Source: Bacteroidetes bacterium HGW-Bacteroidetes-16
Lineage (GTDB): Bacteria > Bacteroidota > Bacteroidia > Bacteroidales > F082
Assembly (NCBI GenBank): GCA_002840975.1
Contig: PHDN01000011.1
Coordinates: 1 to 64,000, forward strand
Length of the DNA stretch: 64,000 bases
Direction: 5' to 3'
Shown here: positions 2,131 through 44,084 of the stretch, piece after piece
Layout of the letters: the number at the start of each line of letters is the position of its first letter
Position numbering within the stretch: the stretch's first letter is position 1
Translations under genes and position numbers: made by a program
The notes under the pieces: model-generated
The model's input: only the letters and a program-made list of their open reading frames with translations
Told to the model about the DNA's origin: nothing
Databases searched by the model: none

Positions 2131-3105
2131 TTACTTATCTCTCTCAACCATCTTTGAGGCCACGTCCCTGAGAATTTCCTTGTTATTTTCGGCTAGTTTA
2201 ACACGATCGAGGTATTCCATGCCCTTGGAATAAAATTTCTCAATTTCATTGGTAGCAATTTTATCGATCCCTAAACGCGTGAAAATGTTTTTAACCTTGT
2301 TTATTTTTGTGATCGATTCGGCCTCTTCGTTGTTATATAAATCAACCAATAGTTGTCGGGTGCTGGCGTCGCTACATTCCAAAGCCTTGATATACAGGAA
2401 GGTTTTTTTATTGGTGATAATATCACCACCTGTTTTTTTTCCAAAGATATTCTCGTCTCCGAAGGTATCCAGGAGATCATCCTTTAATTGAAATCCCAAC
2501 CCGATATTCACACCAAACTCATACAGATTGTCCGCGTCCGAAACGGAAGCACCGCCAATCAGTGCTCCTATCTTCAAACTGGCACCAAACAACACACCTG
2601 TTTTCAATCGGATCATGTTAATATACTCACCAACAGTTACCTGGTTATTGGTTTCGTAGTTTAGATCGAATTGCTGGCCTTCGCATACTTCAATGGCTGT
2701 ACGATTAAACACGCTCAGAATGTTTTGCAATATTTCTTTATCAGCCTGTTGTGCATACTGGTAAGCCAATGCAAACAAGGTGTCGCCTGATAATATGGCA
2801 ATGTTACCGTTCCATTTTCTATAAACTGTTTCCTTTCCCCTTCTGATGGGCGCATTGTCCATGATGTCATCGTGGATGAGGGTGAAGTTGTGAAAAAGTT
2901 CGATGGCAATGGCTTGTGGCAAAGCCAATTCGGCCTTTCCGCAAAACAACTCACAAGCCATCAGGGTTAATACCGGTCGAATGCGTTTGCCACCGTAAAT
3001 TAAAGTGTAGGTAATGGGTTCGTATAGTTCACCAGGTTCGCCACTAAAACTTTGTTTTTCTAATTGTTGTTCAAAATAGCGAATCAGTTGCTCGTAATTC
3101 TTCAT
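2131..3105 (-). CDS. Polyprenyl (geranylgeranyl/octaprenyl-type) diphosphate synthase
   Basis: 324 aa, usual length for trans-isoprenyl diphosphate synthases of the IspA/IspB family, which condense isopentenyl diphosphate units onto an allylic primer. Visible landmarks are GGKRIRP near residue 38 (substrate binding), the first aspartate-rich motif HDDIMDNAPIRRG and the second KDDLLDTFGD, both binding Mg-diphosphate. Chain length cannot be inferred reliably; menaquinone side-chain or C20 synthesis are the likely roles. The stop codon abuts the stop of the convergent ABC-F gene with no intervening base, and the gene lies 6 nt downstream of rfbA, so it is probably the last gene of an RND-rfbA-polyprenyl synthase operon. 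Confidence 0.93.
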   Translation of the reverse strand: MKNYEQLIRYFEQQLEKQSFSGEPGELYEPITYTLIYGGKRIRPVLTLMACELFCGKAELALPQAIAIELFHNFTLIHDDIMDNAPIRRGKETVYRKWNGNIAILSGDTLFALAYQYAQQADKEILQNILSVFNRTAIEVCEGQQFDLNYETNNQVTVGEYINMIRLKTGVLFGASLKIGALIGGASVSDADNLYEFGVNIGLGFQLKDDLLDTFGDENIFGKKTGGDIITNKKTFLYIKALECSDASTRQLLVDLYNNEEAESITKINKVKNIFTRLGIDKIATNEIEKFYSKGMEYLDRVKLAENNKEILRDVASKMVERDK

Positions 3106-3111
3106 CCCGGT

Positions 3112-3975
3112 TTAATTTTTTAATAAACCAATCAGGTATTCTCCATAACCACTTTTAAGCAAAGGTTGTGCGATGGCTTGGAGTTGTTTTGCATTGATGA
3201 ACCCTTTTTTAAAGGCAATTTCTTCAATACATCCAATCTTTAGTCCCTGACGTTCCTGAATCACTTCTACAAATTGAGAAGCCTGGGTCAGCGATGAGAA
3301 AGTCCCTGTATCGAGCCAGGCGGTTCCACGGCTTAGCATGCCCACTTTTAATTTTCCTTCTTTTAAATAATATTTGTTCACATCGGTAATTTCATATTCA
3401 CCTCTCGCGCTTGGCTTTAAATTTTTGGCGACCTCAACTACCGAGTTATCGTAGAAATATAAACCAGGGACGGCATAAGACGATTTTGGTTTTTCAGGTT
3501 TTTCTTCGATGGAAACTGCGTTGTAATGCTCATCAAACTCAACAACACCATAGCGTTCGGGATCAGAAACGTGGTAGGCAAACACGACACCTCCGGTAGG
3601 ATCACTATTTTTTACCAGGATTTCCTGGAGACCGCTCCCATAAAAGATATTGTCACCCAGGATGAGAGAGACCTTGTCGGTACCAATAAACTTCTCACCA
3701 ATCACAAATGCCTGGGCAAGTCCGTTTGGAATCACTTGTTCGGCATATTCAATGGAACAGCCAATCTGACTTCCATCGCCCAATAGCAACTTAAAATTGG
3801 GTAAATCGTGAGGTGTCGATATCAGGAGAATTTCCTTTATCCCCGCCATCATAAGTACGGACAGGGGATAGTAAATCATGGGTTTGTCGTATACAGGCAT
3901 CAGTTGTTTGCTCACGGCAATAGTGAGTGGATGCAGTCGTGTTCCGGCACCTCCGGCCAGGATAATTCCTTTCAT
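3112..3975 (-). CDS. rfbA: Glucose-1-phosphate thymidylyltransferase
   Basis: 287 aa, the normal length of RmlA/RfbA. It makes dTDP-glucose from glucose-1-phosphate and dTTP, the first step of dTDP-L-rhamnose and of other dTDP-6-deoxy sugar pathways. The N-terminus has the nucleotidyltransferase signature [11 protein letters not shown] and [17 protein letters not shown], and [10 protein letters not shown] carries the metal-binding aspartate. No rmlB, C or D lie beside it, so the later steps must be elsewhere. A WecE-type sugar aminotransferase at 57325 would use a dTDP-sugar of this pathway. Spaced 4 nt after the RND exporter gene, suggesting co-transcription. Confidence 0.95.
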
Positions 3976-27937: not shown

Positions 27938-28582
27938 TTAACAACCACCTTCTACAGCCTTGTTTTTTTTCTTGCGCTCAACAGCAACATTAGCCTTTGG
28001 TTCGGGAGTATCATTGTCATTGTTTGAAACAGAGCTGCCTTTAGCCACTTCAGCATAGTCGTATTGAGCATTGCCAATAAAATACGAATCATCGCTGTAG
28101 GAGTCACCCAGCTTATCTTTCCATACATTGTAATAAGAATATCCTCCCATGAGGACCTTTACATTATCGAAACCAATTTGACGCAATAACATATAGGGTC
28201 CGTTGGCTTCCACCAGGTTATTGCCATATATAAGCACTACCTGACCGGCATCTTTAAGTGCTTCCAGCCTCTTGATGTTTTCTTTGGAGATTAATTCTAC
28301 TGCTGAAATATTTTCGGCTCCCGGAATATGACCCCTGCCAAACTGGAATGTATTGCGGATGTCGACCAGAACAATGGTATCGATGGTTTTATTCAGGATA
28401 TCCTCCAGCTCGTATGGATAGAAGAAACCTTCTTCCGAACCGGCTAACATGACTGTTTCTTCGGGAGTGATTGCGTAATTCAATCGTGGTTTGGAAAGGG
28501 TAACCAAACCAATTATAATAACGATGACAAAGATGATCATGGTGACCATCGTCTTCTTTGGATTTAATTCGTGTACGTGCAT
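27938..28582 (-). CDS. Membrane-anchored rhodanese-fold protein lacking the active-site Cys, with C-terminal Gly-Gly-Cys tail (copy 1)
   Basis: 214 aa. One N-terminal membrane helix (residues about 11-30) is followed by a periplasmic rhodanese domain (about 55-160) with V-L-V-D-I-R-N, G-H-I-P-G-A and the active-site loop V-L-I-Y-G-N-N-L. The catalytic cysteine that should follow I-Y is Gly120, so normal sulfurtransferase chemistry is impossible there. After an acidic linker the protein ends E-R-K-K-K-N-K-A-V-E-G-G-C. The last residue is its only cysteine. The tail matches the next protein and one at 36116. Last gene of the psr operon, 20 nt after its paralogue. I infer a sulfur-carrying flexible arm; no such family is known to me. 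Confidence 0.85.
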   Translation of the reverse strand: MHVHELNPKKTMVTMIIFVIVIIIGLVTLSKPRLNYAITPEETVMLAGSEEGFFYPYELEDILNKTIDTIVLVDIRNTFQFGRGHIPGAENISAVELISKENIKRLEALKDAGQVVLIYGNNLVEANGPYMLLRQIGFDNVKVLMGGYSYYNVWKDKLGDSYSDDSYFIGNAQYDYAEVAKGSSVSNNDNDTPEPKANVAVERKKKNKAVEGGC

Positions 28583-28602
28583 GATTTCATTTATTTGAAT
28601 GA

Positions 28603-29214
28603 TTAACAACCCCCTTCAGCTGCCTTGGCTTTTTTCTTTCTGGATACAACTACTTCCGCTTGCGGACTTTTATCAATGCTGATCGATCCACCAGTAAAGT
28701 ACTGGCTGGCTCCCTGGCGGAAAGCATACAGGTTAAACTCGGCTTCGGAGGCAGTTTCTGCAGGTGCTTCGGGCTGAATAATGGTTTGTATCCAACGGTT
28801 TAAACCACCTTTGAGCACATAAATATTCTTCAACCCCAATCGTTTGGCAATCACCCACGCCTGATCCGATTTCAGGTCATCGTTTGAGTAGAAAACAAGA
28901 TTTCGTTTATTAAAAGTCAATGCAGATCTTGCGTCATCCAAAGCCAGACTGTCGAGGGGGAAATTAATGGCATTGGTTAATGAAAATAACTGAAAATCTT
29001 CTGCCGATCTCACATCAACCATCATCAGCAACGGATCGTGTTCGATGATCATCTTGGCTACCTCGTCGGTAGAAACGTAACGTGTAGGTTGAACAATGTC
29101 CCACATCAGCACTTCAGGATCCAGCTGTTTGGAGTTGTTCTTTAAGGGCAATACCAGCAATCCGGCTGCGAGCAGAATGAGGATTCCCATCAGGATAATA
29201 TAATTTTTATTCAT
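28603..29214 (-). CDS. Membrane-anchored rhodanese-fold protein lacking the active-site Cys, with C-terminal Gly-Gly-Cys tail (copy 2)
   Basis: 203 aa. The N-terminal membrane helix spans about residues 5-24 and there is no lipobox, so the protein is anchored by the helix with the rest in the periplasm. The rhodanese domain (about 45-145) has M-V-D-V-R-S-A-E-D-F and L-K-G-G-L-N-R-W. The loop residue expected to be the catalytic cysteine is Ser110 (V-F-Y-S-N-D-D). It ends S-R-K-K-K-A-K-A-A-E-G-G-C. As in the neighbouring paralogue the final cysteine is the only one in the protein. It lies 4 nt downstream of the YeeE/YedE gene, in the same operon as the PsrABC-like complex, which would face the same side of the membrane. 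Confidence 0.86.
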   Translation of the reverse strand: MNKNYIILMGILILLAAGLLVLPLKNNSKQLDPEVLMWDIVQPTRYVSTDEVAKMIIEHDPLLMMVDVRSAEDFQLFSLTNAINFPLDSLALDDARSALTFNKRNLVFYSNDDLKSDQAWVIAKRLGLKNIYVLKGGLNRWIQTIIQPEAPAETASEAEFNLYAFRQGASQYFTGGSISIDKSPQAEVVVSRKKKAKAAEGGC

Positions 29215-29218
29215 CGAA

Positions 29219-29821
29219 TTAGAATTTATACTGAATCATGTTTTTCCTTACCCTGAGTTCAATGCGCCAGGTTATGTAAAAGGCAACTACTGCAATAACA
29301 ACAAAAATGAGGGTAACCAGGTTATTCGAAATTCCGAAGAATTCTCCGATGGTGATGCTGCCCATATTACCTGAATAGTAGAACTGCTCAAAAAACGGGA
29401 AAAATTCAGAAAACAGAAATATTCCTAAAAACAAACCGCCCGTAAATACCATGGCGTCGATTTTGCCAATGGCGATGGCAGTATAACTTGTCCCGGGACA
29501 AAATCCGCCCAAAACAAATCCAACGCCCATAATAATGGCTCCCACAATCATGGGGCTTAAGAAGGTTGGAAGCACATAAATCTGATTCAGGTCGATCCAT
29601 CCGAAATAATCAAAGTACTGAAGGCCAATCATGGCCACCACAACGGCGGTAAAAAATACACGCAGAACGACAAAGTTATACCCGTAAAATACGCCTGTAA
29701 TGTTTCGTGAGGAGGAAAATCCGGAGGCTTCCAATACAAACCCAAAAGCGATGCCTATTAACAGAGCGATCACAAAATCCCAACCCATTGGTATTATTCC
29801 CTGTGGTATTAAAGGTCCCAT
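29219..29821 (-). CDS. YeeE/YedE family sulfur transporter, half-size subunit B
   Basis: 200 aa, about half of full-length TsuA/YeeE, with five or six membrane helices. The conserved cysteine motif of the family is present as G-G-F-C-P-G-T-S-Y (cysteine near residue 103). In characterised YeeE (thiosulfate uptake) such buried cysteines pass thiosulfate through the channel. It contains F-V-L-E-A-S-G-F-S-S-S-R-N, also typical. Paired with a second half-size gene 22 nt upstream, so the two halves presumably assemble to a complete transporter. In this locus it could move thiosulfate or a related sulfur species across the inner membrane. Confidence 0.87.
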   Translation of the reverse strand: MGPLIPQGIIPMGWDFVIALLIGIAFGFVLEASGFSSSRNITGVFYGYNFVVLRVFFTAVVVAMIGLQYFDYFGWIDLNQIYVLPTFLSPMIVGAIIMGVGFVLGGFCPGTSYTAIAIGKIDAMVFTGGLFLGIFLFSEFFPFFEQFYYSGNMGSITIGEFFGISNNLVTLIFVVIAVVAFYITWRIELRVRKNMIQYKF

Positions 29822-29843
29822 AGTTTTATCTTTTTTTAAATGA

Positions 29844-30386
29844 CTAAATCCATAATTTTCTGAAAAAGTAAGCTACCACGTAGCCGGTGCCAAACATCAA
29901 GAGCATCACCAGCAATCCACCAAAAGAGGACGATGCCGTTCCACTGAGTGCGGCTCCGCTGGAGCAACCTCTTCCAAACTGGCTTCCGATACCAAACAAA
30001 ATGCCTCCGATACCGGCTGCAAACAGCCTTGTTTTATTGGTAATGTTGGGCGATTTTTCGATGCGCAGTTTTTTAATTCTGCCAAAGAGAGCTCCCGAAA
30101 GTAAACCTCCGATAAAAATACCAAACGACTCAAAAACCAACCAGTTGAACATGGGAGAATGGTCATCGGTAATAAAGGCTTTCATGTAAGTATTTTGCTC
30201 AGCATGGTCAGGTGCTACTTTATCAACTGTAGTCACTACTGCACTTTTAACAGCGCCGCTGGCGCCCAATCCTCTTCCTGTGATATAAAAAGTGATTAAT
30301 AGCACCAGTCCGAGCAGTACCCCACCAAAATACGGATTGATGTATTTTGGTCGATCTTGAATATCTATTTCTTGATTCATGTTCAA
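29844..30386 (-). CDS. YeeE/YedE family sulfur transporter, half-size subunit A
   Basis: 180 aa with four or five membrane helices. Family motifs are G-R-G-L-G-A-S-G-A near residue 33 and F-G-R-G-C-S-S-G-A-A-L-S-G near residue 138, the latter carrying the transport cysteine. A periplasmic loop lies in between. It is the partner of the gene at 29219, and together they equal one full-length YeeE/YedE. Position directly after the NrfD-like gene (12 nt) ties sulfur-compound transport to the molybdoenzyme complex. The substrate (thiosulfate, sulfide or other) is inferred from the family only. Confidence 0.87.
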   Translation of the reverse strand: MNMNQEIDIQDRPKYINPYFGGVLLGLVLLITFYITGRGLGASGAVKSAVVTTVDKVAPDHAEQNTYMKAFITDDHSPMFNWLVFESFGIFIGGLLSGALFGRIKKLRIEKSPNITNKTRLFAAGIGGILFGIGSQFGRGCSSGAALSGTASSSFGGLLVMLLMFGTGYVVAYFFRKLWI

Positions 30387-30398
30387 AAACTTTTAAAA

Positions 30399-31340
30399 TT
30401 AATACAGATAACGCGTAATTTGTCCTGCTTCAACCATAACAAACCTAAATACAAGGCCGCCAAAAAGAATGAGCAAGGCAGGAATCCAGATAGGGATATG
30501 AAATCCCCTCAGTTCAAGTATTTCTAGAACTGCCGGGAATGCAAGTCCAAGGATGACGACAAAAACCCAAAAAGTTACCGTGAACTGACCTCCAAGAAAT
30601 AACTCCGCCGCTTCCACTTGTACCGCAGTAGCTGAAAGGAAACCCATGAACAAATGCACGATTAAAAACAACTCAACTGCAATAAGGACGATGTCAATCT
30701 GACTCATAATCCTTCTTTCTGTTTTGTTTTTCGACATCCAGATGATTGTGGCCAGTCCGGTCGACAAGCCGGAAACCAGAAACAAAGGTCCTAAAATAGA
30801 AGTGTTCCATAAGGGACGTGCATTGAACGCAGAAAGTAATATGCCTGTGTAAACGCCCAGTACAACAGCTAAAAACATCATGATCCAAGCCATTTCTCTC
30901 CGTTTTTTGGCAAAAAAGTCGATGGTTTGTTCTATCAATTTAGATTTCCAATTCCAGTTTGGAACGGCCTCTTTAAGGTAAGTAGCAGACCATATCATCG
31001 AAAGAGGTGTCACAAGCATCAGTGTCCAGGCTCCCCACGACATGGGTGATCCCATTCGTACGGTAGTATAAAGTCGCCAAAAATACATCTCATGTTTTAA
31101 GTCGAGAAAAAGAGCAAAAAGCCCAAGGACTAAGGCTATAGGCACTAAAAATGGTGCCCATTTAACTGTTGTTGCCATTTCTTTTTCCTTACCCATAATG
31201 GTAAATAATCCTGCAAAAAACATGATGCCGGCGGCAATGCCTCCCAGGTAAAGATAGAGTGGGATTTGCCAGTGCCATATATTTAGAAAAGGGTCTATGT
31301 TCGGGATATCGCGTCCACTAATAAATAATTCTTCTTTCAT
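30399..31340 (-). CDS. NrfD/PsrC-type membrane subunit of polysulfide/thiosulfate reductase
   Basis: 313 aa with eight or nine membrane helices, of the NrfD/PsrC family. These subunits anchor a molybdoenzyme and its ferredoxin to the membrane and oxidise menaquinol without haem. Typical features are W-H-W-Q-I-P-L-Y-L-Y-L-G-G at helix 1 and F-L-D-L-K-H-E-M-Y-F-W-R between helices 2 and 3. S-P-M-S-W-G-A-W and the C-terminal R-F-V-M-V-E-A-G-Q follow. It lies 18 nt after the ferredoxin gene. It should donate electrons from the quinol pool to the periplasmic subunits. Confidence 0.92.
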   Translation of the reverse strand: MKEELFISGRDIPNIDPFLNIWHWQIPLYLYLGGIAAGIMFFAGLFTIMGKEKEMATTVKWAPFLVPIALVLGLFALFLDLKHEMYFWRLYTTVRMGSPMSWGAWTLMLVTPLSMIWSATYLKEAVPNWNWKSKLIEQTIDFFAKKRREMAWIMMFLAVVLGVYTGILLSAFNARPLWNTSILGPLFLVSGLSTGLATIIWMSKNKTERRIMSQIDIVLIAVELFLIVHLFMGFLSATAVQVEAAELFLGGQFTVTFWVFVVILGLAFPAVLEILELRGFHIPIWIPALLILFGGLVFRFVMVEAGQITRYLY

Positions 31341-31358: not shown

Positions 31359-31892
31359 TTATGTAAGAAAATATAACTGTGGTTTGGTACCTGCCTCAGG
31401 TGCTAACACTTTCCATGATCTGTTTTTAAGTGCCAGAGAGACATCACTGTAGGGATCTTCGATGTCGCCAAAATGTAAACATTTTGTTGGGCATACATCC
31501 ACACAAGCAGTGTTTTGGCCCTTTTCCAGGCGGTGCTGACAAAATGTACATTTATCCACATATCCATCCGGATGTGAATACCGTGCATCGTAAGGACATG
31601 ATTGAATACAAGCACCACAACCTATACACTCATCGTGGGTAACCATCACAATTCCGCCTTCAACAGTATGACTTGCTCCTGTCGGGCAGCAGCGCACACA
31701 GGGTGCATTTTCACAATGATTGCATCGCTCAGAACGGAGTTCAATTTCTACAATTGGATAGGCTCCGCTTACATTTTCAACAATCCAGTCACGGCAATAG
31801 CCATGAGGAACATTATTCTCAGTTTGACAGGCTACAACACAGTCGCTGCACCCGACACATTTTTTTGTGTCAATTGCCATTGCGTATCTCAT
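31359..31892 (-). CDS. PsrB-type four-cluster ferredoxin subunit
   Basis: 177 aa, the size of DmsB/PsrB/NrfC electron-transfer subunits. Four cysteine clusters for [4Fe-4S] binding are visible: C-V-G-C-S-D-C-V-V-A-C near residue 12, C-N-H-C-E-N-A-P-C-V-R-C-C-P, C-I-G-C-G-A-C-I-Q-S-C-P and C-T-F-C-Q-H plus a later C-V-D-V-C-P-T-K-C. No signal peptide is present; such subunits are exported together with the Tat-signal catalytic subunit. Its start overlaps the end of the molybdoenzyme gene by 4 nt (ATGA), so translation is coupled. Confidence 0.94.
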   Translation of the reverse strand: MRYAMAIDTKKCVGCSDCVVACQTENNVPHGYCRDWIVENVSGAYPIVEIELRSERCNHCENAPCVRCCPTGASHTVEGGIVMVTHDECIGCGACIQSCPYDARYSHPDGYVDKCTFCQHRLEKGQNTACVDVCPTKCLHFGDIEDPYSDVSLALKNRSWKVLAPEAGTKPQLYFLT

Positions 31893-34135
31893 GCTTCAGC
31901 CTCCTTTCCAGGTTTTTCTGTAATGAAGGTCACAAAATTCCCCCTCATTCCGGTTCCTCCCATCATTGGATCCACCATAACGTTTGTAATTAATTGTGTA
32001 TCACTTGCACCCCTTCCAAAGGTGCGTGTAAGTTTTTTATTGTCGTGTCCGAAACCATGAACCATATAGACTGAGTCCCATCTGATTCGCTCCGTCACTC
32101 GTACTTTAATCGGAAATGTAGATACAATTCCATCCTGGTTTTGAAGCCATATTTTTTGACCGGTTTTCAGATCCCACAATTCTGCAACTTTAGGATTGAT
32201 CCAAACGGAATTTTCATTCATCAAATCAAACAAATTGTGGTTGTTGGAGGTACGTGAAAAGGTATGCATGGGTGCCCGGCCATATATTAACCGGTAGAAA
32301 CCGTCTTCAGGTTCCGGATGCTTGGTGAATTTTGGCATGGGATCGAATCCTAATTCGGCAAATTCGGTTGAATAAAGTTCTATTTTTCCACTGTTTGTAT
32401 TAAAATGGTATTCTTCGCCATCAGCAAGATAGAGTGGTCCTGACTTTCGGTTGAACATCTTAATGCCAATCTTTTTCATCTCATCCAGTGAAGTACCCAT
32501 TTTTTTTAATTGCCAATCAAGAACTTCTGAGAAATCATCGTAGTCAAAAAAATCGCCTAATCCCAGGCGCTCGCCCAGTTGTTTTGCTATCCACCACGAT
32601 GGTTTTGTTTCGTATTTTGGTTCCACTGCCGGCATACGGATTGCAATGTTTGGTTCCCGATGTGGCGCTGCTCTTAGTGTGTCGTAGCGTTCCAGGTAGG
32701 TACATTCAGGGAGAACAACATCCGCATACCCGGTGATGTCCATGGGCATGGTATCTACAACTACAATAAATTCAACCGCTTCTGCAGCTGTTTTAAATAG
32801 CTCTTTGTTCGGTATCGTCAATGGGAGATTTGTTCCGGCCACCATCCAAGCTTTTATTTGATGCTTATATCCAAACTCAGGAATAGAGGCTGCTAAAAGC
32901 TCGGTTGTAATAGCCATAGAGGAAAGGGGATACTTTCCGTCCAGGTTATCTTTCCAGCTCCATTCGGTATGAGGATATTGTGGGTGCGGATATTTTGGGA
33001 CAGAGATGGCTTCTTTAAAATAGAATCCGCCTCTTTTCCCCCATGAACCCAGGAGGGCATTTAAAATGGCAATGGCACGTTCGCGCTGGCTGTCGTCACC
33101 ATACCAAACTACGTGGCGTCCTGGATGTACAATAACAGCTGGTGCTGCATTGGCCATTTCACGGGCTGTTTTTCTGATAATGGAAGGTTCTATGGTTGTA
33201 ATACCATAGGCCCATTCGGGTGTCATGTCTTTTACGTGCTCCTTTAGCTGTTCGAAGCCCATGGTGTACTGCTCTACATAATCTTTGTTAAACAGGCCTT
33301 CATATATTAACACATGAATCCATGAAAGCAACAGTGCCAGGTCGGTAGCTGGTTTAATCGGCAGCCAGTATTTTGATTTGCTGGCCACAGTACTTAATCG
33401 GGGATCAACTGTAATGATTGTTGCATTTCTACCAATGATATCTGCTACTTCCTGAACCTGACCATTGTGCATGTTTTCGCCAATATGCGAACCAATTAAT
33501 ACAAGACAGTTTGTGTCGCGAATGTCGGTTGGCTCCGGGGACCCAATCCAGCTCCCGAAGGTAGCCGAAAACCCAACTTCACGGGGACCGCGACATTGTG
33601 CCCAGGCAGGCTCGCCTTCATTTTCACTTCCGTAAGCGTGCAACAGATGTTTAAAATGTTCTCCAGGTGCTCCATGATTAAATAAGGCAAAGGATTCAGG
33701 TCCATATTTGTCAGCCACGTCTTTCATTTTCGAAGCTACCAAATCCAGTGCTTCTTTCCAGGAGGCTTTTCTAAAAACCTGTTCTCCATTTACAGTCTCA
33801 CGGATGAGTGGGGTTTTTAACCGATCTTCATCAGTGTACATACCCACGCCACCGGTGCCTCTTGGGCAAAGGCGGCCATTACAGTGCGGATCCTCTTTGT
33901 TGCCTATGATCTTGCGGATGTTTTTATGTTTGTCAACATAAGTCCATCCGGCGCATTTCCAAAAGCACACTTCGCAATAGGTTGGAAAGGACGTCATTTC
34001 TTCGTCGCTTACCGCCGTTTGATCGATGGCAGCATTGGCCAGTTTAAGCCCTGCAATATTGATAGTGCTAAGGCCAATTGCCGCTGCACCGGCACCTACA
34101 GCTGATATTTTTATAAACTCTCTTCTTGTTTTCAT
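31889..34135 (-). CDS. Molybdopterin oxidoreductase of the PsrA/PhsA (polysulfide/thiosulfate reductase) type
   Basis: 748 aa from the ATG at 34135. The Tat signal R-R-E-F-I-K followed by an alanine/glycine hydrophobic stretch directs folded export. A [4Fe-4S] site is formed by C-E-V-C-F-W-K-C (C54, C57, C61) with C90 in R-L-C-P-R-G. C181, in A-W-A-Q-C-R-G-P, sits where PsrA/PhsA enzymes have the cysteine ligand of molybdenum. Molybdopterin-guanine dinucleotide binding is spread over the rest, ending with the C-terminal beta-barrel domain. The family reduces polysulfide, thiosulfate or tetrathionate and some members act oxidatively. The rhodanese and YeeE genes favour a zero-valent sulfur or thiosulfate substrate. 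First gene of the seven-gene operon. Confidence 0.92.
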   Translation of the reverse strand: MKTRREFIKISAVGAGAAAIGLSTINIAGLKLANAAIDQTAVSDEEMTSFPTYCEVCFWKCAGWTYVDKHKNIRKIIGNKEDPHCNGRLCPRGTGGVGMYTDEDRLKTPLIRETVNGEQVFRKASWKEALDLVASKMKDVADKYGPESFALFNHGAPGEHFKHLLHAYGSENEGEPAWAQCRGPREVGFSATFGSWIGSPEPTDIRDTNCLVLIGSHIGENMHNGQVQEVADIIGRNATIITVDPRLSTVASKSKYWLPIKPATDLALLLSWIHVLIYEGLFNKDYVEQYTMGFEQLKEHVKDMTPEWAYGITTIEPSIIRKTAREMANAAPAVIVHPGRHVVWYGDDSQRERAIAILNALLGSWGKRGGFYFKEAISVPKYPHPQYPHTEWSWKDNLDGKYPLSSMAITTELLAASIPEFGYKHQIKAWMVAGTNLPLTIPNKELFKTAAEAVEFIVVVDTMPMDITGYADVVLPECTYLERYDTLRAAPHREPNIAIRMPAVEPKYETKPSWWIAKQLGERLGLGDFFDYDDFSEVLDWQLKKMGTSLDEMKKIGIKMFNRKSGPLYLADGEEYHFNTNSGKIELYSTEFAELGFDPMPKFTKHPEPEDGFYRLIYGRAPMHTFSRTSNNHNLFDLMNENSVWINPKVAELWDLKTGQKIWLQNQDGIVSTFPIKVRVTERIRWDSVYMVHGFGHDNKKLTRTFGRGASDTQLITNVMVDPMMGGTGMRGNFVTFITEKPGKEAEA

Positions 34136-34156
34136 TCTACCCGAATTAATTCGCAA

Positions 34157-36115: not shown

Positions 36116-37021
36116 TTAGCACCCTCCGTCAGAAGCGGATTCTTTCATTTTTTTTGTCGGTGCAACAGATGCTTTTGTATCAAGCCGATTGCCTTTTACT
36201 TCCCATTCCTTATATGCACCATCGTAAACCTTTACATTAGTCCACCCCATTTCATTTGTAAGGGCTGTATAGATGACTGCCGCAATAATTCCGGTATTGC
36301 AATAGATAACAATAGGTTGGTTAGGGGTTAATTTGTATTGAGCAATCAGGGATTCGAGCTCCGATTTGGATTTAAATGCCTCTGAAGGTGTTAGTACTTC
36401 TTTGTAGTTGATGTTGATGGCTCCGGGAATATGGCCTTTGCTTTTCTCTGAAGCACCGGTAAATTCTTCTGAAGTTCTGGCATCAATGATCAATGCTTTA
36501 CCCTCTTTTACATAAGCCATGTCGGCAATTATTGCATCGTTTACTTTTGAAGTAAAGGTAGTTGCTGCTCTTTTCACTGGCATTTTCGTGATAGGCACCC
36601 TTACTTTTCTCCAATTGTCCATGTCTTTTTGGAGAATTTTTACATTTGGCGCTCCTAAATATTTCAGTATCCAATATACCCTCGACGAGTATTTCTGAGT
36701 TCCTCCATCATACACAACAATGGTATTGTTATCATTTACCCCTTTTGATGCGAAGATCGCTGCCAATTCAGCGGGACTATTAATTAGTCCCTCAATTTCG
36801 CCCTCTTTTTCCAAAGATTTATAAGGAACATTTACTGCATCTTTTATATGAGCAAGTGTGTAATCCTTTTCTTTGCTGGCATCAATAATAACAACATTTT
36901 TATCTGTTTTGATTAGTTGCATGAACTGTTCAGCTGTGATAATATCCCCCTGTGCCAATGCCGGCATAGCGTAAGCAACAACCATCAGACTAGTTGCAAG
37001 TAAATAGTTAAGCATTTTCAT
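36116..37021 (-). CDS. Periplasmic double-rhodanese sulfurtransferase with C-terminal Gly-Gly-Cys tail
   Basis: 301 aa with a cleavable signal peptide (residues 1-24, ending P-A-L-A-Q). Two rhodanese domains follow, the layout of thiosulfate/3-mercaptopyruvate sulfurtransferases. The first (about 27-140) has Asp105 where the catalytic cysteine should be (V-V-Y-D-G-G). The second (about 160-275) has it, C241, in I-Y-C-N-T-G-I-I-A-A. The protein ends A-P-T-K-K-M-K-E-S-A-S-D-G-G-C; the only two cysteines are C241 and the last residue, C301. A persulfide on C241 could be passed to the tail cysteine. The tail resembles those of the two psr-operon proteins. It is the third gene after a rhodanese lipoprotein and a porin. 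Confidence 0.88.
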   Translation of the reverse strand: MKMLNYLLATSLMVVAYAMPALAQGDIITAEQFMQLIKTDKNVVIIDASKEKDYTLAHIKDAVNVPYKSLEKEGEIEGLINSPAELAAIFASKGVNDNNTIVVYDGGTQKYSSRVYWILKYLGAPNVKILQKDMDNWRKVRVPITKMPVKRAATTFTSKVNDAIIADMAYVKEGKALIIDARTSEEFTGASEKSKGHIPGAININYKEVLTPSEAFKSKSELESLIAQYKLTPNQPIVIYCNTGIIAAVIYTALTNEMGWTNVKVYDGAYKEWEVKGNRLDTKASVAPTKKMKESASDGGC

Positions 37022-37045: not shown

Positions 37046-38149
37046 TTAAAATTTTACCTGGAATTGGATCATAAAAGCGTCATTGTCATACTCATTAACA
37101 ATACCATTGCTTTTGCCTTCTATATTATATACGTAGTTTGCCTGAATCCGTGTCCAATCATTCAGGAAATAATTTACGCCCATGGTTAATGTATTTAGGG
37201 TGTAATTTTGCCCGACTCCCTGGTAGGAATAGGTGGTTCCGTCAGGGTCGTACGCTTCATACTTTACGATGGGTTGTAAATTAATGGGAAACATATATAT
37301 TGCGGCTACCCAAAAGCCGGAGGCTTTGAATACCGGCTCGGTAACAAGAGTAGATTTGCCACCACAACCACCACCGGTTGCAACTTCACCCACTGTAATG
37401 CCATAAATATATTCTCCCTGAAATTTGAAGCTTTTGTAATCAAGAGTCAAGTCGCCGGCATAACGGGTAACACTTTTAACTGTTCCATCTGCGTCAAGAA
37501 TCTTACCAATAAGACCTGTCCGTCCGCTTGCTCCAATATTTATCCACTCATAAGGAGAGTAAACAACGCGACCTGCAATTTCTTTATTGGCATTGTCATC
37601 AAGTACATTGATTCCGGTACCATTTAAAACGGCTACTTTATATGAAATAATGTCTCTGTCTTTTCCGAATGCACCCAGCACCATCAATCCCATATCTCTG
37701 AAAGGAGAGGCGAGGTTATTTACAACCGTTGATCTGTTGATCGTGTTTAGCGCATAACATGGAGTGTTTAACTCCAGTGAAAAAGGTGATTTAAATTGTC
37801 CAATGGAAATCTTCATGTATTTTCCGATGGGTGCGTATGAGATATAGGCGTCAAGTAATTGAGGGCCTCCTGAAACAGGACTTAATTCTGCCATTACATA
37901 ATAGCTTATGTCATATGGTATTGATCCGACAACACCAAAGCGGGCGCGAAGGAATTCAAATGTACTTGGTTTGATTGCGTTTCCATTGGCATCATCACCA
38001 AAATAATAGTAATTAAATTGGGGTTGAATGTATCCAACCAGTTGAGGCCCGTCTGAGGAAGTAGTTTCAACGCATCCTTGAGCTGTTGACAAATTGCTAT
38101 AGGTTAGCGACATCAGAAATAAACCTGCTATGAGGAGAACTTTTTTCAT
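37046..38149 (-). CDS. OprP/OprO-like outer-membrane porin
   Basis: 367 aa with a signal peptide (MKKVLLIAGLFLMSLTYSN, cleavage after S-T-A-Q). The mature protein is built of amphipathic beta strands. An early F-E-F-L-R-A-R-F-G-V-V-G and G-Q-F-K-S-P-F-S-L-E plus a C-terminal F-Q-V-K-F place it with the phosphate-selective porin O/P group. In Bacteroidota this group includes general anion channels. A loop with the unusual hexapeptide G-G-G-C-G-G (C262) is encoded at 37358-37375. Position between two rhodanese genes suggests it admits thiosulfate or another sulfur oxyanion. Start ATG 38149 chosen over an upstream GTG/ATG frame because the signal peptide begins there. Confidence 0.85.
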   Translation of the reverse strand: MKKVLLIAGLFLMSLTYSNLSTAQGCVETTSSDGPQLVGYIQPQFNYYYFGDDANGNAIKPSTFEFLRARFGVVGSIPYDISYYVMAELSPVSGGPQLLDAYISYAPIGKYMKISIGQFKSPFSLELNTPCYALNTINRSTVVNNLASPFRDMGLMVLGAFGKDRDIISYKVAVLNGTGINVLDDNANKEIAGRVVYSPYEWINIGASGRTGLIGKILDADGTVKSVTRYAGDLTLDYKSFKFQGEYIYGITVGEVATGGGCGGKSTLVTEPVFKASGFWVAAIYMFPINLQPIVKYEAYDPDGTTYSYQGVGQNYTLNTLTMGVNYFLNDWTRIQANYVYNIEGKSNGIVNEYDNDAFMIQFQVKF

Positions 38150-38188
38150 TTTAGTTGTAGATTTTATTGTCAGTAAACAAGATAAACA

Positions 38189-38213
38189 GGCTGACGGTAT
38201 CAATCCGTCAGCC
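38189..38213 (-). terminator. Intercistronic hairpin between rhodanese lipoprotein and porin
   Basis: A perfect 9-bp stem GGCTGACGG/CCGTCAGCC around TATCAAT lies between the stop of the lipoprotein gene (38224) and the porin start (38149). On the minus strand it is followed by TGTTTATCTTGTTT. It could be a partial terminator that lowers downstream expression or an mRNA processing/stability element. Confidence 0.5.
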
Positions 38214-38223
38214 CGGTGATCAT

Positions 38224-39219
38224 TTATTTTGCAAGTGTTCCTTCAAAAGGGAAGCTGTGGTAAGGGAAATGCCAGTTGTTTTTTGAATCGGTTGTTAAGG
38301 CATCATGCATGAGTGCGTTTACACCAAAACTTATGCTTTTTACATTGTATCCCAATACATTCAACCAAGCGGTGGTGATTGAAGAGGTTTGTCCTGTATA
38401 GCAATAAACCAGGTTATTGTTGTCTGGATTAAGTGCATTTGCTGTTGCAAATGAAATAGTTGTATACTGATAAGCACCTGAATAGTGACCATATTTTAAA
38501 TAGTCAGCTTCACCCCAATAGTTATAGATTGAATAATCAACCGGAGCAGCTAAAGCTTCAGCAGCTGTAACATTCCATCCGGAAGCAGTTAGCATTACCT
38601 GTACACGTTCAGCTAAAATGGTGGCTCCATCCGTAGAGGTGGAAGTCCAGGTCGGGTTCAGGTTGACAGGTAAAGTAGCCGAAGCATTGGTATTCCAGTT
38701 GGGGCTGCCAACTGCAATGTTACCCACTTTACTCGTCCAGCTATCGAAGGCTGCATTGTTAGTCCAGGCAGAAAACCCAAACTTAGCTACTTTGGCGCTA
38801 TAGCCAGAGAGACGCAAAGCCATAACAGCGCGGCCTGCTGTTTGTCCGGTATAACAGAAAACCAGGATTGGTTTGTCTTTTCCTACTTCAGCTGCTTTTG
38901 TGAGTACGTTAGCAAGTTCGACATTAATAGCCCCTTTAACATGTCCTTTTTCAAAGTCCGCAGCACTTCTTATATCAAATACATGGTAAGTAGGAATCGT
39001 TCCATCGGGCTCAACAAAGCCACCATCAGCCACGTATTTTGCATCAGTAACCCAGCCATCAAGTAAATCAGGCAGGTCCATGGTATTGGTTGTCATGTAA
39101 GCCTTTAAATCATCGTAGGTGCCAACTACAACAGGATCATCATTCTTGTCTTTACAACTTGTTAAAAACAATGCCGGAATAATCATGGCAATAAATAAAT
39201 AACTAAATAATTTTTTCAT
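38224..39219 (-). CDS. Double-rhodanese lipoprotein
   Basis: 331 aa. Lipobox F-L-T-S-C places the lipidated cysteine at residue 22, so the protein sits on the periplasmic or outer face of the envelope. Two rhodanese domains each keep the catalytic cysteine: C122 in F-C-Y-T-G-Q-T-A-G-R and C273 in Y-C-Y-T-G-Q-T-S-S. The near-identical loops point to an internal duplication. It has no Gly-Gly-Cys tail, unlike three other rhodanese proteins of the locus. A likely role is taking sulfane sulfur from thiosulfate or polysulfide and handing it on. First gene of the operon that also contains the porin and the soluble double rhodanese. Confidence 0.88.
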   Translation of the reverse strand: MKKLFSYLFIAMIIPALFLTSCKDKNDDPVVVGTYDDLKAYMTTNTMDLPDLLDGWVTDAKYVADGGFVEPDGTIPTYHVFDIRSAADFEKGHVKGAINVELANVLTKAAEVGKDKPILVFCYTGQTAGRAVMALRLSGYSAKVAKFGFSAWTNNAAFDSWTSKVGNIAVGSPNWNTNASATLPVNLNPTWTSTSTDGATILAERVQVMLTASGWNVTAAEALAAPVDYSIYNYWGEADYLKYGHYSGAYQYTTISFATANALNPDNNNLVYCYTGQTSSITTAWLNVLGYNVKSISFGVNALMHDALTTDSKNNWHFPYHSFPFEGTLAK

Positions 39220-39418: not shown

Positions 39419-40114
39419 ATGAGCATGCCTGGTTCCTCAAATAGCTGTGTTGTTGAAAATAAACATATGGAGTGTTTTGATGTGTTGACAGAAGCGGAAA
39501 AGGAGTACTTAGAAAAAAATACCATCAGAATTGTTTATAAGAAAGGGGAGGTGATTGCCAAACAAGGTTCGTTTGCATCTCACGTCATATTTTTGGAGAA
39601 AGGGCTGGTGAAAGTATTTATTGGCGGAACTTCAAAAGATTTGATTTTAAAGATTATACCGGCCAGTCACTTTATTGGATTATCCAGCATTTATGAGGGC
39701 AACAATGCATTTATCTATTCCGCATCCACCTATATTGATTCTGAAGCCAGACTGATTGATTTAAGTGTGTTTAAACAACTGCTCATGTCGAATCCTGAGT
39801 TTGCATTCAAAATGTTTAACATACAAAACGAAAATGCAGCCCAGGTTTACGGTCGGTTTTATTGTTTAACACGAAAACAGTCGGCAGGCCTGGTAGCCGA
39901 TTTATTGATTTGTTTATCTGACCGGGTATTTAAAACAAAGAGTTTTTTATTGCCTATTAGCCGCAATGATTTGGCCGATCTTACAGGCTTGTCGGTGGAA
40001 AGCGTTATGCGTATTATGAAAGATTTTAAAGATGATGGAATAATCAGTACCAAAGGGAAGCAGATCAGTGTACTGGAGCCGGATTTGCTCCTTAAAATCA
40101 GTAAGTTCGGATAA
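39419..40114 (+). CDS. Crp/Fnr family transcriptional regulator (copy 3)
   Basis: 231 aa. The sensor beta-roll has K-K-G-E-V-I-A-K-Q-G and F-L-E-K-G-L-V-K-V. A long dimer helix and a helix-turn-helix follow (L-P-I-S-R-N-D-L-A-D-L-T-G-L-S-V-E-S-V-M-R). N-terminal cysteines are C10 and, in H-M-E-C-F, C19. Close in sequence to copy 4 directly downstream (48 nt) and to copy 2. It is divergent from the rhodanese-porin operon, so it probably regulates it. The signal sensed is unknown; persulfide or oxygen sensing through the N-terminal cysteines is a guess. Confidence 0.88.
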   Translation: MSMPGSSNSCVVENKHMECFDVLTEAEKEYLEKNTIRIVYKKGEVIAKQGSFASHVIFLEKGLVKVFIGGTSKDLILKIIPASHFIGLSSIYEGNNAFIYSASTYIDSEARLIDLSVFKQLLMSNPEFAFKMFNIQNENAAQVYGRFYCLTRKQSAGLVADLLICLSDRVFKTKSFLLPISRNDLADLTGLSVESVMRIMKDFKDDGIISTKGKQISVLEPDLLLKISKFG

Positions 40115-40162
40115 GTACGGGGTTCGAGATCAGATAAAAACAAACCGAAATACCAGTAAACC

Positions 40163-40864
40163 TTGAATAACATAGTCGATCGCATAAAAGCCAGTTGTAC
40201 AGTTCGCAACCTTAGCTGCAGTTGTTTTGAACACCTCACCGATGAGCAAAAAGAGCTCGTTGAAAAAAATAAGGTGTTGGTTTCATATAAAAAAGGTGAA
40301 ACCATCGTTAAAAAGGGAACCTATGCAAGTCATATTATATTGGTTACCGAAGGTCTGGCGAAGGTTTATTACGAAGAAGGTGATTATAGCATCATTTTGC
40401 GTATTGCTGCGCCCAACAGCCTGATCGGATTAACTTCCTTGCCACTTTACCAAAACACCTTTCAATATACTGCTACGGCTTATGTAAAAACTTCTGTTAA
40501 ACTCATCGATATCAATATTATCAGGCAATTAATTTTGGAAAATGGTCGGTTTGCTACTGCCATTATTGATCTTCTGTGCGAAGGAACTATCCAAAAGAAT
40601 GGTCGTTTTTTTTGCCTGAATCACCGACAGGCGCATGGTAAACTGGCAGATATCATCCTATGCCTTGCCGGAAATATCTATAAACAGAATAAATTCGAGT
40701 TGTTGCTTAGTCGTAAAGAAATGGCCGAACTTTCCGGGATTTCTACCGAAAGTGTAACCCGAATATTGAAGGATTTTCAGGATGATGGACTGATTATAAC
40801 AAGGGGTAAAATATTTGAAGTAGTTGATCCTGACGGATTAATGAAGCTGTGTAAACTTGATTAA
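40163..40864 (+). CDS. Crp/Fnr family transcriptional regulator (copy 4)
   Basis: 233 aa from a TTG start; no ATG is in frame nearby and the N-terminal residues M-N-N-I-V-D-R resemble a usual beginning. It has the beta-roll (Y-K-K-G-E-T-I-V-K-K-G-T-Y-A-S-H) and helix-turn-helix (L-S-R-K-E-M-A-E-L-S-G-I-S-T-E-S-V-T-R). Three cysteines cluster at the N-terminus (C-T-V-R-N-L-S-C-S-C-F) and further cysteines lie in the core. Tandem with copy 3 and likely co-transcribed. Clearly a paralogue, suggesting duplication in the locus. Confidence 0.87.
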   Translation: MNNIVDRIKASCTVRNLSCSCFEHLTDEQKELVEKNKVLVSYKKGETIVKKGTYASHIILVTEGLAKVYYEEGDYSIILRIAAPNSLIGLTSLPLYQNTFQYTATAYVKTSVKLIDINIIRQLILENGRFATAIIDLLCEGTIQKNGRFFCLNHRQAHGKLADIILCLAGNIYKQNKFELLLSRKEMAELSGISTESVTRILKDFQDDGLIITRGKIFEVVDPDGLMKLCKLD

Positions 40865-40968: not shown

Positions 40969-41364
40969 ATGAAGCAAAAATACAACCGACGTCTTTTTAT
41001 AAAATTCATCGCCGCTTTTATGGGATTGTTGTTTCTTGGTTTATGGCAACGAATGGTGGACAGCAAATCGAAAAATGAAATTAAAAAACCGGTGGTGGTG
41101 CCATTGGCCGGTTTAACGGGTGTGAATTTTTTTGAAAAATTTATTGTGATTAAAAAGGATGACCAATTTGAGGTGTTGTCGTCCAAATGTACCCATCTGG
41201 GTTGTAGAATCAATCAGCAGTCGCAGGATAAACTGATGTGCCCGTGCCATGGATCGTCGTATACACTGAATGGTCAGGTGGTTACCGGACCTGCCATAAA
41301 ACCCTTGCCTCAGTTGGCCTACCAGATTAATACCGATCAACAAACCCTGACCGTGGAACTATGA
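40969..41364 (+). CDS. Rieske [2Fe-2S] iron-sulfur protein
   Basis: 131 aa. An N-terminal R-R-L-F-I-K followed by a hydrophobic helix (about 10-26) is a Tat-like signal anchor. The Rieske domain has both cluster-binding boxes, C-T-H-L-G-C and C-P-C-H-G-S, giving a high-potential [2Fe-2S] centre. No third cysteine pair beyond this is needed. It should take an electron from quinol at the Qo site of the cytochrome b encoded next, whose start overlaps this gene by 4 nt (ATGA). The pair is a bc1/b6f-like quinol oxidase module. Confidence 0.94.
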   Translation: MKQKYNRRLFIKFIAAFMGLLFLGLWQRMVDSKSKNEIKKPVVVPLAGLTGVNFFEKFIVIKKDDQFEVLSSKCTHLGCRINQQSQDKLMCPCHGSSYTLNGQVVTGPAIKPLPQLAYQINTDQQTLTVEL

Positions 41365-44084
41365 TTAAGCCACTTCATAAACTAATTACCAAAACCACTT
41401 TCGGTCAATTAAGTCTGGCTTTGTTGATTATTTGTGTTGTCTCCGGAATTTTTCTGGTAGTACCCTATAATGTCAACGATGCCTATGGTTCCATCAGTTT
41501 CCTGATGCTAACCAATCCGGCGGCTTCGCTTTTTCGAAACATACACTACTGGAGTGCCCAGTTTTTTCTGCTTTTCACTGTGATCCATTTATACGATCAT
41601 CTTACCCGTAAAAAAGCCATCAAACTCAATATGGCGCTGTGGTTCCGGCTTATCATCGGAGTGCTGATAATCTTTCTGGCCATGATCACCGGCTTTATAT
41701 TAAAAGGAGACGCCGATGCCGGTCAGGCCCAAAGGATTTTCTCAGGTTTGATTACCCGAATTCCATTGATTGGAGAAATGATCCGCCAGACATTTCTTGG
41801 AGATGGCGAAAGCCTTCAGCTCATTTATGTTCACCACATAGCCACCTTCACCATTTTTATCATTATTGTTGTGATGGAGCATGCCCCGACCATCTGGCCC
41901 CGGTTGCGCGATTTTGTAATAACCATGACATCCATTTTGATATTGAGTGTTTTGCTGATGGCTCCACTACATGATGGGTTAAGCCTGGTGGTAAAAGGGC
42001 CCTGGTATTTTGTTGGATTTCAGGAAATCCTGCATTTGATTACACATCCGGGCTATTCCTTGATCATCGTATTGTTGTTGCTGTTTCTGCTATTTATGGT
42101 ACCGCTTTCGCGGAATAAAGGATGGCTGCCCAAACGGTTATTGCTCTTTTTCACTTTGGTTTATTTGTTTCTTACAATAATCGGTTATTTTTTCAGGGGA
42201 GCCAACTGGCAGTGGCAATGGCCTTGGAAATCAAATGAAATAAGTGCAGTATATAATCCTGTTGAAACAGCTGACTGGCAGGTTTTGGGTTTGTTTTCAA
42301 AGGCTTCTGACACCTTGCCGGAGGTTATTTTAGGCAGAAACGAAAGTTGTTTGATTTGTCACCAGGGAATGACCGGATTTTCAAAATCGCATAACCCTCA
42401 GGCCGTTGGGTGCTATTCTTGTCATGGAGGCAATCCGTTTTCACCGGAAAAGAAGGCTTCACACCAGGGGATGAGGTTGATACCCGGAAATCTGGCGGAT
42501 GCCGGCCAATCATGTGGAACCACACAATGTCATCATCAAATCACTTCCCGCATCAATAATGGATTGATGGCCAATTTAAGTGGCATGATCAGTGTCGACA
42601 GATTTGTGTTTGACGAAATTGCATCTCCTGACGAGCTTACATCGGTGGATGAATTACACCATTCCCCGGCCGATGAACATCTGAAAAATTTGTGTGTAAC
42701 CTGTCATTTGGGAAACCCAAAAACGGAAACAGGCCCCATTACCAACGAAAGCAGGGGAGGAGGTTGCCTGGCCTGTCATCTCAATTACAATGAAGCAGAT
42801 AGCAGCCAAGCACATCTTGCCATTGACCGCAAAAACCATCCCGATTACCTGAAAATCCATCCGTCCATCGATTTAAAAGTCAGCAACAACCATTGTTTTG
42901 GTTGCCATAACCGATCGGGAAGGATTTCGACCAATTATGAAGGCTGGCACGAAACGCTGTTGAACCCGGATGAATTAGTCACCAATCATTCCTATCGCAT
43001 CATTGACCAAACCAGGGTTTTTACCTACATTCAGGAAGATGTACACCATAAATTGAAAATGGATTGCATCGACTGTCATAATTCCTATGAGTTGATGGGT
43101 GATAATACGCGTTATGCCCATCAGGAACAGCAGGTGGATATTGCTTGTGCGGATTGTCACCGGACCAAAGCAGATCATACGGTTACTTATGCTCAATTGG
43201 ATCAGGAGTCGGCACTCATCGCAGGACTCAGATATTCCGATATTTCAAATAGGGTGTTTTTAACCACCGAAAAGCGAAACAAGGCGCTTATTAATACCGA
43301 ATTCAGGAACGATACCATGTGGATGCATGGAAAAAACCGGGATACAGTGTATGCATTGCGTCCTCCGAATGCAGTTTGTACGTATGGACAAGCCCATGAT
43401 GAGGTAAGTTGCAATGCCTGCCATTCGGCCTGGGCACCGAGCTGCATAGGCTGCCACAATGCCTACGATGAAAATGAACCAGGCTACGACATGGTTAAAA
43501 ACCTTGAAAAACAAGGGAGTTGGGTAGAATATGTTGGCGAATACAATGCCGGATTGCCTGCACTGGGAATCAGAAAAACCGCTTCCGGTCAGGAAATAAT
43601 TCCGGTGGTGCCGGGCATGGTGTTGACCATCGACCTGACCAGCTACACCAAAGATCAACACGATTCGTTGCTCTTCAAGCGGTTGTTTACTCCTGCAGCA
43701 CCCCATACCACAGCCGCCAAAGGCCGTTCATGTGTTTCATGTCACAACAATCCCGAAGCTTTGGGCTACGGAAAGGGAACGCTTACCTACGTGATCGATG
43801 ATGGTAAGGGCTTTTGGAAATTTAATTCTCATTATAAGAACAACTCCCATGATGGTTTGCCCGAAGATGCCTGGGTGGGATTTCTGAATGATAGAAAAGG
43901 ACAGGTGGTTTCTACGCGCGCCGACGTGTTCCCATTTTCGGTCGATCAGCAAAAGGCCATCCTCACCCTTGGGGCTTGCTTAACCTGCCATGACGAAAAA
44001 AGTACTATCATGGTACAAAGTGTGGTGAATTTCGATTCTTTGGTGAAAACCGTTTCGCCAAAATGCATTCTGCCTGTTTGGTAA
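41361..44084 (+). CDS. Cytochrome b fused to a 12-haem cytochrome c
   Basis: 907 aa. Residues 1-290 are a cytochrome b6/subunit-IV-like membrane part. Haem b ligands are H62/H76 on helix B and H159/H174 on helix D (15 apart, as in b6-type). A Qo-like motif G-P-W-Y-F is present. From about residue 329 to 876 a periplasmic domain carries twelve haem c sites: C-L-I-C-H, C-Y-S-C-H, C-G-T-T-Q-C-H (four-residue spacing), C-V-T-C-H, C-L-A-C-H, C-F-G-C-H, C-I-D-C-H, C-A-D-C-H, C-N-A-C-H, C-I-G-C-H, C-V-S-C-H and C-L-T-C-H. It should pass electrons from menaquinol, with the Rieske protein, along a haem wire to a periplasmic or extracellular acceptor. The acceptor is unknown; a link to the sulfur enzymes is inferred from proximity. 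Confidence 0.9.
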   Translation: MIKPLHKLITKTTFGQLSLALLIICVVSGIFLVVPYNVNDAYGSISFLMLTNPAASLFRNIHYWSAQFFLLFTVIHLYDHLTRKKAIKLNMALWFRLIIGVLIIFLAMITGFILKGDADAGQAQRIFSGLITRIPLIGEMIRQTFLGDGESLQLIYVHHIATFTIFIIIVVMEHAPTIWPRLRDFVITMTSILILSVLLMAPLHDGLSLVVKGPWYFVGFQEILHLITHPGYSLIIVLLLLFLLFMVPLSRNKGWLPKRLLLFFTLVYLFLTIIGYFFRGANWQWQWPWKSNEISAVYNPVETADWQVLGLFSKASDTLPEVILGRNESCLICHQGMTGFSKSHNPQAVGCYSCHGGNPFSPEKKASHQGMRLIPGNLADAGQSCGTTQCHHQITSRINNGLMANLSGMISVDRFVFDEIASPDELTSVDELHHSPADEHLKNLCVTCHLGNPKTETGPITNESRGGGCLACHLNYNEADSSQAHLAIDRKNHPDYLKIHPSIDLKVSNNHCFGCHNRSGRISTNYEGWHETLLNPDELVTNHSYRIIDQTRVFTYIQEDVHHKLKMDCIDCHNSYELMGDNTRYAHQEQQVDIACADCHRTKADHTVTYAQLDQESALIAGLRYSDISNRVFLTTEKRNKALINTEFRNDTMWMHGKNRDTVYALRPPNAVCTYGQAHDEVSCNACHSAWAPSCIGCHNAYDENEPGYDMVKNLEKQGSWVEYVGEYNAGLPALGIRKTASGQEIIPVVPGMVLTIDLTSYTKDQHDSLLFKRLFTPAAPHTTAAKGRSCVSCHNNPEALGYGKGTLTYVIDDGKGFWKFNSHYKNNSHDGLPEDAWVGFLNDRKGQVVSTRADVFPFSVDQQKAILTLGACLTCHDEKSTIMVQSVVNFDSLVKTVSPKCILPVW

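Follow-up and report, generated by a model that had tools for sequence, protein, structure and literature searches.

Sud, the polysulfide-sulfur transferase of Wolinella succinogenes, is a rhodanese of the periplasm, presumed to supply PsrABC with sulfur from polysulfide; it has a single rhodanese domain and, to our knowledge, no GGC-type tail. The arm of SoxY is C-terminal and ends GGCGG. In the available text of PMC11237559, the sulfur-binding cysteine of SoxY is described as lying on a 'swinging arm' that contains a GGC motif. For the Psr operon of Desulfurivibrio dismutans, the available section of PMC12142623 describes a secreted three-rhodanese lipoprotein, a porin and YeeE/YedE that are proposed to feed PsrABC; this section makes no mention of GGC tails or dead carriers, and the likeness to the locus studied here is one of description. 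The ext cluster of Geobacter has a rhodanese (ExtH) and a porin (ExtI), and the present locus likewise has a rhodanese beside an ExtI-like porin. Little is known about the periplasmic delivery of zero-valent sulfur, solid or dissolved, to polysulfide reductase. No report of GGC-tailed rhodaneses was found in the open literature, which omits most subscription papers, and the available portions of PMC13047784, PMC13188914 and PMC11073785 make no mention of such tails.

We analysed a stretch of 64,000 nucleotides (the window) from Bacteroidetes bacterium HGW-Bacteroidetes-16, which carries a gene for a double-domain rhodanese, dblRhod (36116..37021). The ORF lies on the minus strand, with ATG at 37021 and TAA at 36116-36118; the preliminary description of the gene had given no strand. 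The 301-aa product is predicted to be secreted, with a signal peptide, judged by eye, at residues 1-23 (36953..37021; ending ..AMPALA and followed by Q). The rhodanese domain PF00581 was found twice (E 4.4e-37) and was the sole Pfam match; a SoxY domain was not found in the protein. Only two cysteines are present, as the preliminary description had stated: C241 in the active-site loop of domain 2, Y-C-N-T-G-I-I-A (codon 36299..36301), and C301 as the last residue (GGAGGGTGCTAA; codon 36119..36121), the latter recovered both by the alignment and by a genome scan for Gly-Gly-Cys-stop. In E. coli 3-mercaptopyruvate sulfurtransferase (1urh), the residue aligned with C241 is the cysteine of the SCGSGVT loop, and C241 was invariant in 42/42 aligned orthologue rows. 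The catalytic place of the dead first domain is occupied by D105 (codon 36707..36709), which pairs with an Asp in the first domain of 1urh. The earlier placing of an aspartate there was correct, yet because D105 was present in 42/42 orthologue rows and also in E. coli SseA, one live site with Asp in domain 1 is, judged from the alignment, the ordinary state of the double-rhodanese family and nothing special. The SseA model NF008557 (NCBIfam) gave dblRhod 119.8 bits, below its curated cut-off of 250. The C-N-T-G-I-I loop has no basic residue at position 246, where 34 of the 42 rows have one; six of the eight rows without it bear the C-terminal tail. An anionic thiosulfate donor would thus be less likely, and the sulfur donor of dblRhod may be other than thiosulfate or mercaptopyruvate, for example polysulfide.

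dblRhod is the last gene of a conserved cassette, lipoRhod (38224..39219), porin (37046..38203) and dblRhod, which lies about 2 kb from a psrABC-like operon, all on the minus strand. lipoRhod is a lipoprotein rhodanese with two CYTGQ loops and no tail in this genome (Pfam), and the porin is an outer-membrane protein of the Porin_O_P/ExtI kind (Pfam and NCBIfam). The Geobacter ExtH model (NF040901) scored dblRhod at 65 bits, far below its cut-off of 200, and a second match to an ext-cluster model in this ExtH/ExtI comparison reached 45.1 bits, far below its cut-off of 150. The operon encodes a PsrA/PhsA-like molybdopterin catalytic subunit (31889..34156; Pfam, with PhsA as the best NCBIfam match, below its cut-off), a PsrB-like 4Fe-4S subunit (31359..31892) and a PsrC/NrfD-like membrane subunit (30399..31340), both assigned by Pfam and NCBIfam. 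It also holds a YeeE/YedE-type sulfur transporter divided into two genes (29219-30386), with the N-terminal half in YedE1 (29219..29821) and the C-terminal half in YedE2 (29844..30386), each assigned by Pfam and each with one invariant Cys in 63/63 genomes. At 40969-44084, the window carries a Rieske protein and, after it, a fusion of cytochrome b with a multihaem cytochrome, an arrangement that recurs beside the cassette in relatives.

Searches for dblRhod orthologues, each including the source genome, returned matches in 2/395 genomes of the phylum (E 1e-30), 55/393 of the order (E 1e-12) and 24/61 relatives. No dblRhod relative was found in viral contigs, and plasmids gave 280 records with double rhodaneses, at identity under 60%. 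The alignment comprised 42 rows from 40 fetched stretches and the window (closed ORFs of 260-340 aa, E below 1e-40). Eight of these rows, from four genera, carried an extra stretch of about 20 residues of the form K..V...KK...GGC, with GGC exactly at the end every time, and the other 34 ended sooner. In the window this tail covers residues 279-301 (36119..36187) and ends S-D-G-G-C. The tailed rows came from four genomes of the window's genus (the window included), G815 and G791 (one genus), G799 and G795, and their tails read KASVAPTKKMKESASDGGC, KAGVSAVKKSKSISSDGGC, NKAGVLTTKKVGGSGGGC, KAGVSVQKKQKNAASGGGC and TKSGVSVSKKSGTASGGC. K, V, KK and GGC were retained across the four genera, between which protein identity was 55-67%, and the linker was variable. 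The mature protein contained exactly C241 and the terminal Cys in 8/8 tailed rows, since Cys 11 of three congeners lies inside the signal peptide. In an unrooted tree built without the tail columns, all tailed rows fell within one strongly supported 14-row clade. The tail state required at least two changes on this tree (one change in 17% of bootstrap trees), compared with a mean of 7.4 for shuffled tail labels, and 0/500 shuffles were as low as the observed value. The history of the tail fits a gain in the 14-row clade, or a gain and one loss. Because 34/42 rows are tail-less, the lipoRhod-porin-dblRhod cassette as such, judging by these orthologues, does not need the tail.

We then considered GGC endings across the whole genome. 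Gly-Gly-Cys-stop occurred at 47 places (24 TAR, 23 TGA), and the real genes ending in this way were only three (36116, 28603 and 27938), all rhodaneses within 9 kb. A 115-codon open frame ending in GGC (L075) was taken as spurious by eye and was not counted as a gene. In the corresponding regions of 40 relatives (560 closed ORFs; same-genus near-copies counted), 44/44 GGC-ending ORFs of at least 150 aa belonged to the rhodanese family. With the constant GGC end of the eight tailed dblRhod rows, these counts mark the tail as special and beyond chance. Outside the order, no ORF ending in GGC was present in the 30 loci examined, drawn from 42/395 phylum genomes with a match resembling lipoRhod2, a separate, single-domain lipoprotein. 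Other cysteine-containing endings were also observed. At L104, two small rhodanese lipoproteins (2427-2915 and 2950-3444) end S-G-C-G-G and G-G-C-G-G, near the ending of SoxY, and near the cassette in G788 a 341-aa ORF (L122:7963-8988) ends C-G-C-G-C-C.

The other two GGC-ending genes of the window, psrRhodA (28603..29214) and psrRhodB (27938..28609), lie on the minus strand in the psr operon and encode dead rhodaneses predicted to be membrane-anchored, in which a hydrophobic helix at the N-terminus precedes a rhodanese domain and, mostly, a lysine-rich GGC tail. The sole Cys of each is terminal, C203 in psrRhodA (tail RKKKAKAAEGGC) and C223 in psrRhodB (tail RKKKNKAVEGGC); the true start of psrRhodB is probably the ATG at 28582. 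A psrRhodA match was found in 136/393 genomes of the order, and the loci examined (30 loci and 60 further stretches) cover part of these. The results showed that the catalytic place of psrRhodA held Cys in 0/92 rows and Ser in 87, whereas the tail Cys was present in 92/92, so that the carrier-like tails earlier ascribed to the psr-operon proteins were borne out. The 92 rows ended in GGC (63), GGC plus one residue (27) or EGC (2), and in 55 of them the tail Cys was the sole Cys. For psrRhodB, the catalytic Cys was kept in 5/65 rows, which had been picked for a terminal Cys; before row removal, a Cys lay within the last four residues in 96/96 psrRhodA and 69/75 psrRhodB picks. These counts omit L108-L110, which are near-copies from the same genus, and L191, also a near-copy, and those for psrRhodB also omit L177, where the ORF stops ahead of the tail, and L237, L238, L241, L248 and L251, where the ORF picked was a different, untailed lipoprotein. 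In these last five loci, the untailed protein is rhodanese-like, about 205 aa long with the end D-E-[ED]-C-P-D-L-N, and is adjoined by a tailed rhodanese of 375-390 codons. L277, L278 and L279 (G798, G805, G810) contain, next to a tailed frame of 209-234 codons, open frames 412-433 codons long that end KGGC or QGGC and are perhaps longer or fused psr rhodaneses.

The tail was present in 23/23 copies of lipoRhod2, and the loop was live, with C-K-K-G or C-R-K-G, in 20/23. With 92/92 vs 0/92 in psrRhodA and 5/65 catalytic cysteines in psrRhodB, the terminal Cys is therefore the better kept thiol. A live rhodanese combined with a GGC tail occurred on three rhodanese types, namely dblRhod, lipoRhod2 and tailed lipoRhod. 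A search of the source genome gave only weak cross-matches to lipoRhod2 (E 8.6e-5 and 9.3e-4), and the tailed single-domain gene is missing at 40114-40163 of the window, where congeners have it between two Crp-type regulators. Replacement of lipoRhod2 by the dblRhod tail was rejected as a rule, since lipoRhod2 accompanies tailed dblRhod in L104, L107 and L108-L110.

The tails of psrRhodA and psrRhodB were compared in 65 operons over residues -10 to -3 relative to the terminal Cys. Tail identity was 71% within the same genome and 29% between genomes, and 0/10,000 permutations reached the observed value (highest 0.365). Body identity was 26% for pairs from one genome and 25% for pairs from different genomes; this slight excess was reached in 1/10,000 permutations. 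Orthologous psr tails compared with the nearest genome (mean body identity 60%) showed 49% identity, and the same-genome paralogue tail was the better match than the nearest-genome orthologue in 50 of the 65 operons, equal in 7 and worse in 8. Codons at identical tail residues were shared no more than expected from the same genes (0.52 vs 0.48), and recent gene conversion is therefore an unlikely cause of the matched tails; old gene conversion with later silent change could still account for them. A third GGC-tailed protein, a lipoRhod-like double rhodanese of 363-399 codons, was encoded in 21 other psr operons (L206-L260). Pfam runs covered four of these proteins, and lipoRhod was the best window match in 21/21. 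The tail of this third protein was 76% identical to that of psrRhodA in the same genome vs 34%, with 0/10,000 permutations as high. The simplest reading of the matched psr tails would be selection for one arm sequence fitting a common acceptor. When tail distances were set against those of YedE1 and YedE2 in 63 genomes, the correlation was nil after correction for the psrRhodA body (0.004 and 0.013), and this distance correlation neither supports nor contradicts YedE as the acceptor of the psr arms. More generally, a pattern of matching tails on unlike bodies within an operon offers a handle for finding common docking partners.

In build (V..., KK, GGC), the dblRhod tail is like the psr tails encoded in the source genome, but the letters differ. 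In the four genomes with both, its identity to psr tails was 0.225 in the same genome and 0.233 in other genomes, while psrRhodA and psrRhodB tails in these four genomes reached 0.70 vs 0.525. The link that the preliminary description drew between this tail and the psr carrier tails consequently holds for the GGC-arm design, which dblRhod has in common with the two psr rhodaneses, and fails for the tail sequence, which does not track the psr tails. Because this matching is absent, the dblRhod tail is probably a like arm with a docking place other than that of the psr tails, and dblRhod may hand sulfur to the psr arms rather than compete with them.

We propose that dblRhod, a double-domain rhodanese, acts as a secreted sulfurtransferase to which evolution has added a cysteine arm, and we put the whole account, from C241 through C301 to a partner, just short of an even chance. 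C241 would take sulfane sulfur from a periplasmic donor, likelier polysulfide or persulfide than thiosulfate, and form a persulfide. On its flexible tail, some 23 residues long, C301 would then be able to take the sulfur from C241 and, behind the Gly-Gly hinge, would offer it to a partner. The natural partners would be psrRhodA and psrRhodB, membrane-anchored and dead, with the GGC arm as sole thiol; their genes share an operon with those of the PsrABC-like reductase and the split YedE, and their arms would receive the sulfur at the reductase. We infer from the sequences the periplasmic site, the persulfide on C241 or C301, the direction of transfer and the identity of donor and acceptor. AlphaFold2 models, built on only four near-identical sequences each, had a mean pLDDT of 46.3 for dblRhod and 45.9 for psrRhodA, too low to be of use for a C241-C301 distance or a fold search. 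The tail is suggestive of a swinging arm moving sulfur from one protein to another. A hand-off from C241 to C301 is plausible, and it could take place between two molecules just as well as within one. The cysteine-arm account is favoured by the invariance of C241, by the two-cysteine mature protein of every tailed row and by the confinement of the tail to one clade. It also draws support from the retention of K, V, KK and GGC beside a variable linker, from the restriction of GGC tails to rhodaneses in these loci, from the terminal Cys outlasting the catalytic one, from the three rhodanese types that combine a live site with a tail and from the SoxY-like endings at L104. Against it stand the 34 rows without a tail, the lack of covariation with the psr tails of the same genome, and G799, an incomplete genome (91%) that has the dblRhod tail and no psrRhodA match. 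The observation made in the preliminary description was confirmed, and its interpretation is partly supported.

C301 may instead trade sulfur with other proteins, such as the live lipoprotein rhodaneses, while C241 serves a different step and no hand-off occurs within the protein. We consider this possible, if rather unlikely. It agrees with the GGC arm being kept in dead psr rhodaneses that have no catalytic Cys of their own, with the 3/23 lipoRhod2 rows that lack the catalytic Cys and keep the tail, and with the likeness of psr tails on different proteins within a genome, which a shared partner would predict; however, if the catalytic and tail cysteines had no contact, the recurrence of a live site plus a tail on three types of rhodanese would have to be put down to chance. 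As a resolving Cys, C301 would attack the C241 persulfide and release sulfide, and the resulting C241-C301 disulfide would be re-reduced by a partner, making dblRhod a persulfide reductase and not a carrier. The presence of exactly two cysteines in all eight tailed mature proteins and the reductive sulfur setting of the locus speak for such a role, but tails on single-Cys proteins, as in 55/92 psrRhodA rows, cannot make an in-chain disulfide, and we judge it improbable. Terminal cysteines can undergo modification in other systems, and a sorting, anchoring or metal-binding signal unrelated to sulfane sulfur would be conceivable on that ground; it is very unlikely here, given that only three rhodanese genes use the ending among 47 Gly-Gly-Cys-stop places, and that the psr rhodaneses already have N-terminal membrane helices and many lipoRhods have lipoboxes. 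We give equally little credence to an ordinary sulfurtransferase with a neutral extension of one clade, which the absence of the tail in 34/42 rows would allow, because GGC and KK were kept over four genera while the linker drifted, and the tail resembles those of the other GGC-tailed rhodaneses of the locus.

Returning to the cysteine-arm account, we regard it as about evenly balanced whether the psr operons of this one order hold a class of sulfur carriers, in which GGC arms on several rhodaneses are kept nearly identical per operon by selection, since all would dock at one acceptor. As part of that same reading, the proposed members would be dead carriers anchored in the membrane together with live lipoproteins, joined in the window's clade by the soluble double rhodanese. 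Dead rhodaneses that keep the terminal Cys alone, with arms matched per operon, point to dedicated thiol arms. An arm of this kind predicts a persulfide on the terminal Cys, arms that are interchangeable within a species, and a shared acceptor.

Compared with known enzymes, dblRhod is like E. coli SseA (1urh) and bovine rhodanese in its two rhodanese domains and its catalytic Cys in domain 2, and SseA also has Asp at the place of D105. It differs from them in being predicted to be secreted, in its C-N-T-G-I-I loop without a basic residue at 246, and in a GGC tail that extends beyond the aligned part of the structures. Like Sud, dblRhod would be a periplasmic rhodanese near a psr-like operon, about 2 kb away on the same strand, and feeding of PsrA by dblRhod is putative. 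Its GGC end recalls the GGC motif of SoxY, in which the sulfur-binding Cys lies on a swinging arm; sulfur binding by C301 is putative. Unlike SoxY, dblRhod has a rhodanese fold and no SoxY domain, its arm stops at the Cys, and its locus is of the reductive psr/YedE type and not sox. The best reading of these likenesses and differences would be that a cysteine arm like that of SoxY has arisen anew on rhodanese folds.
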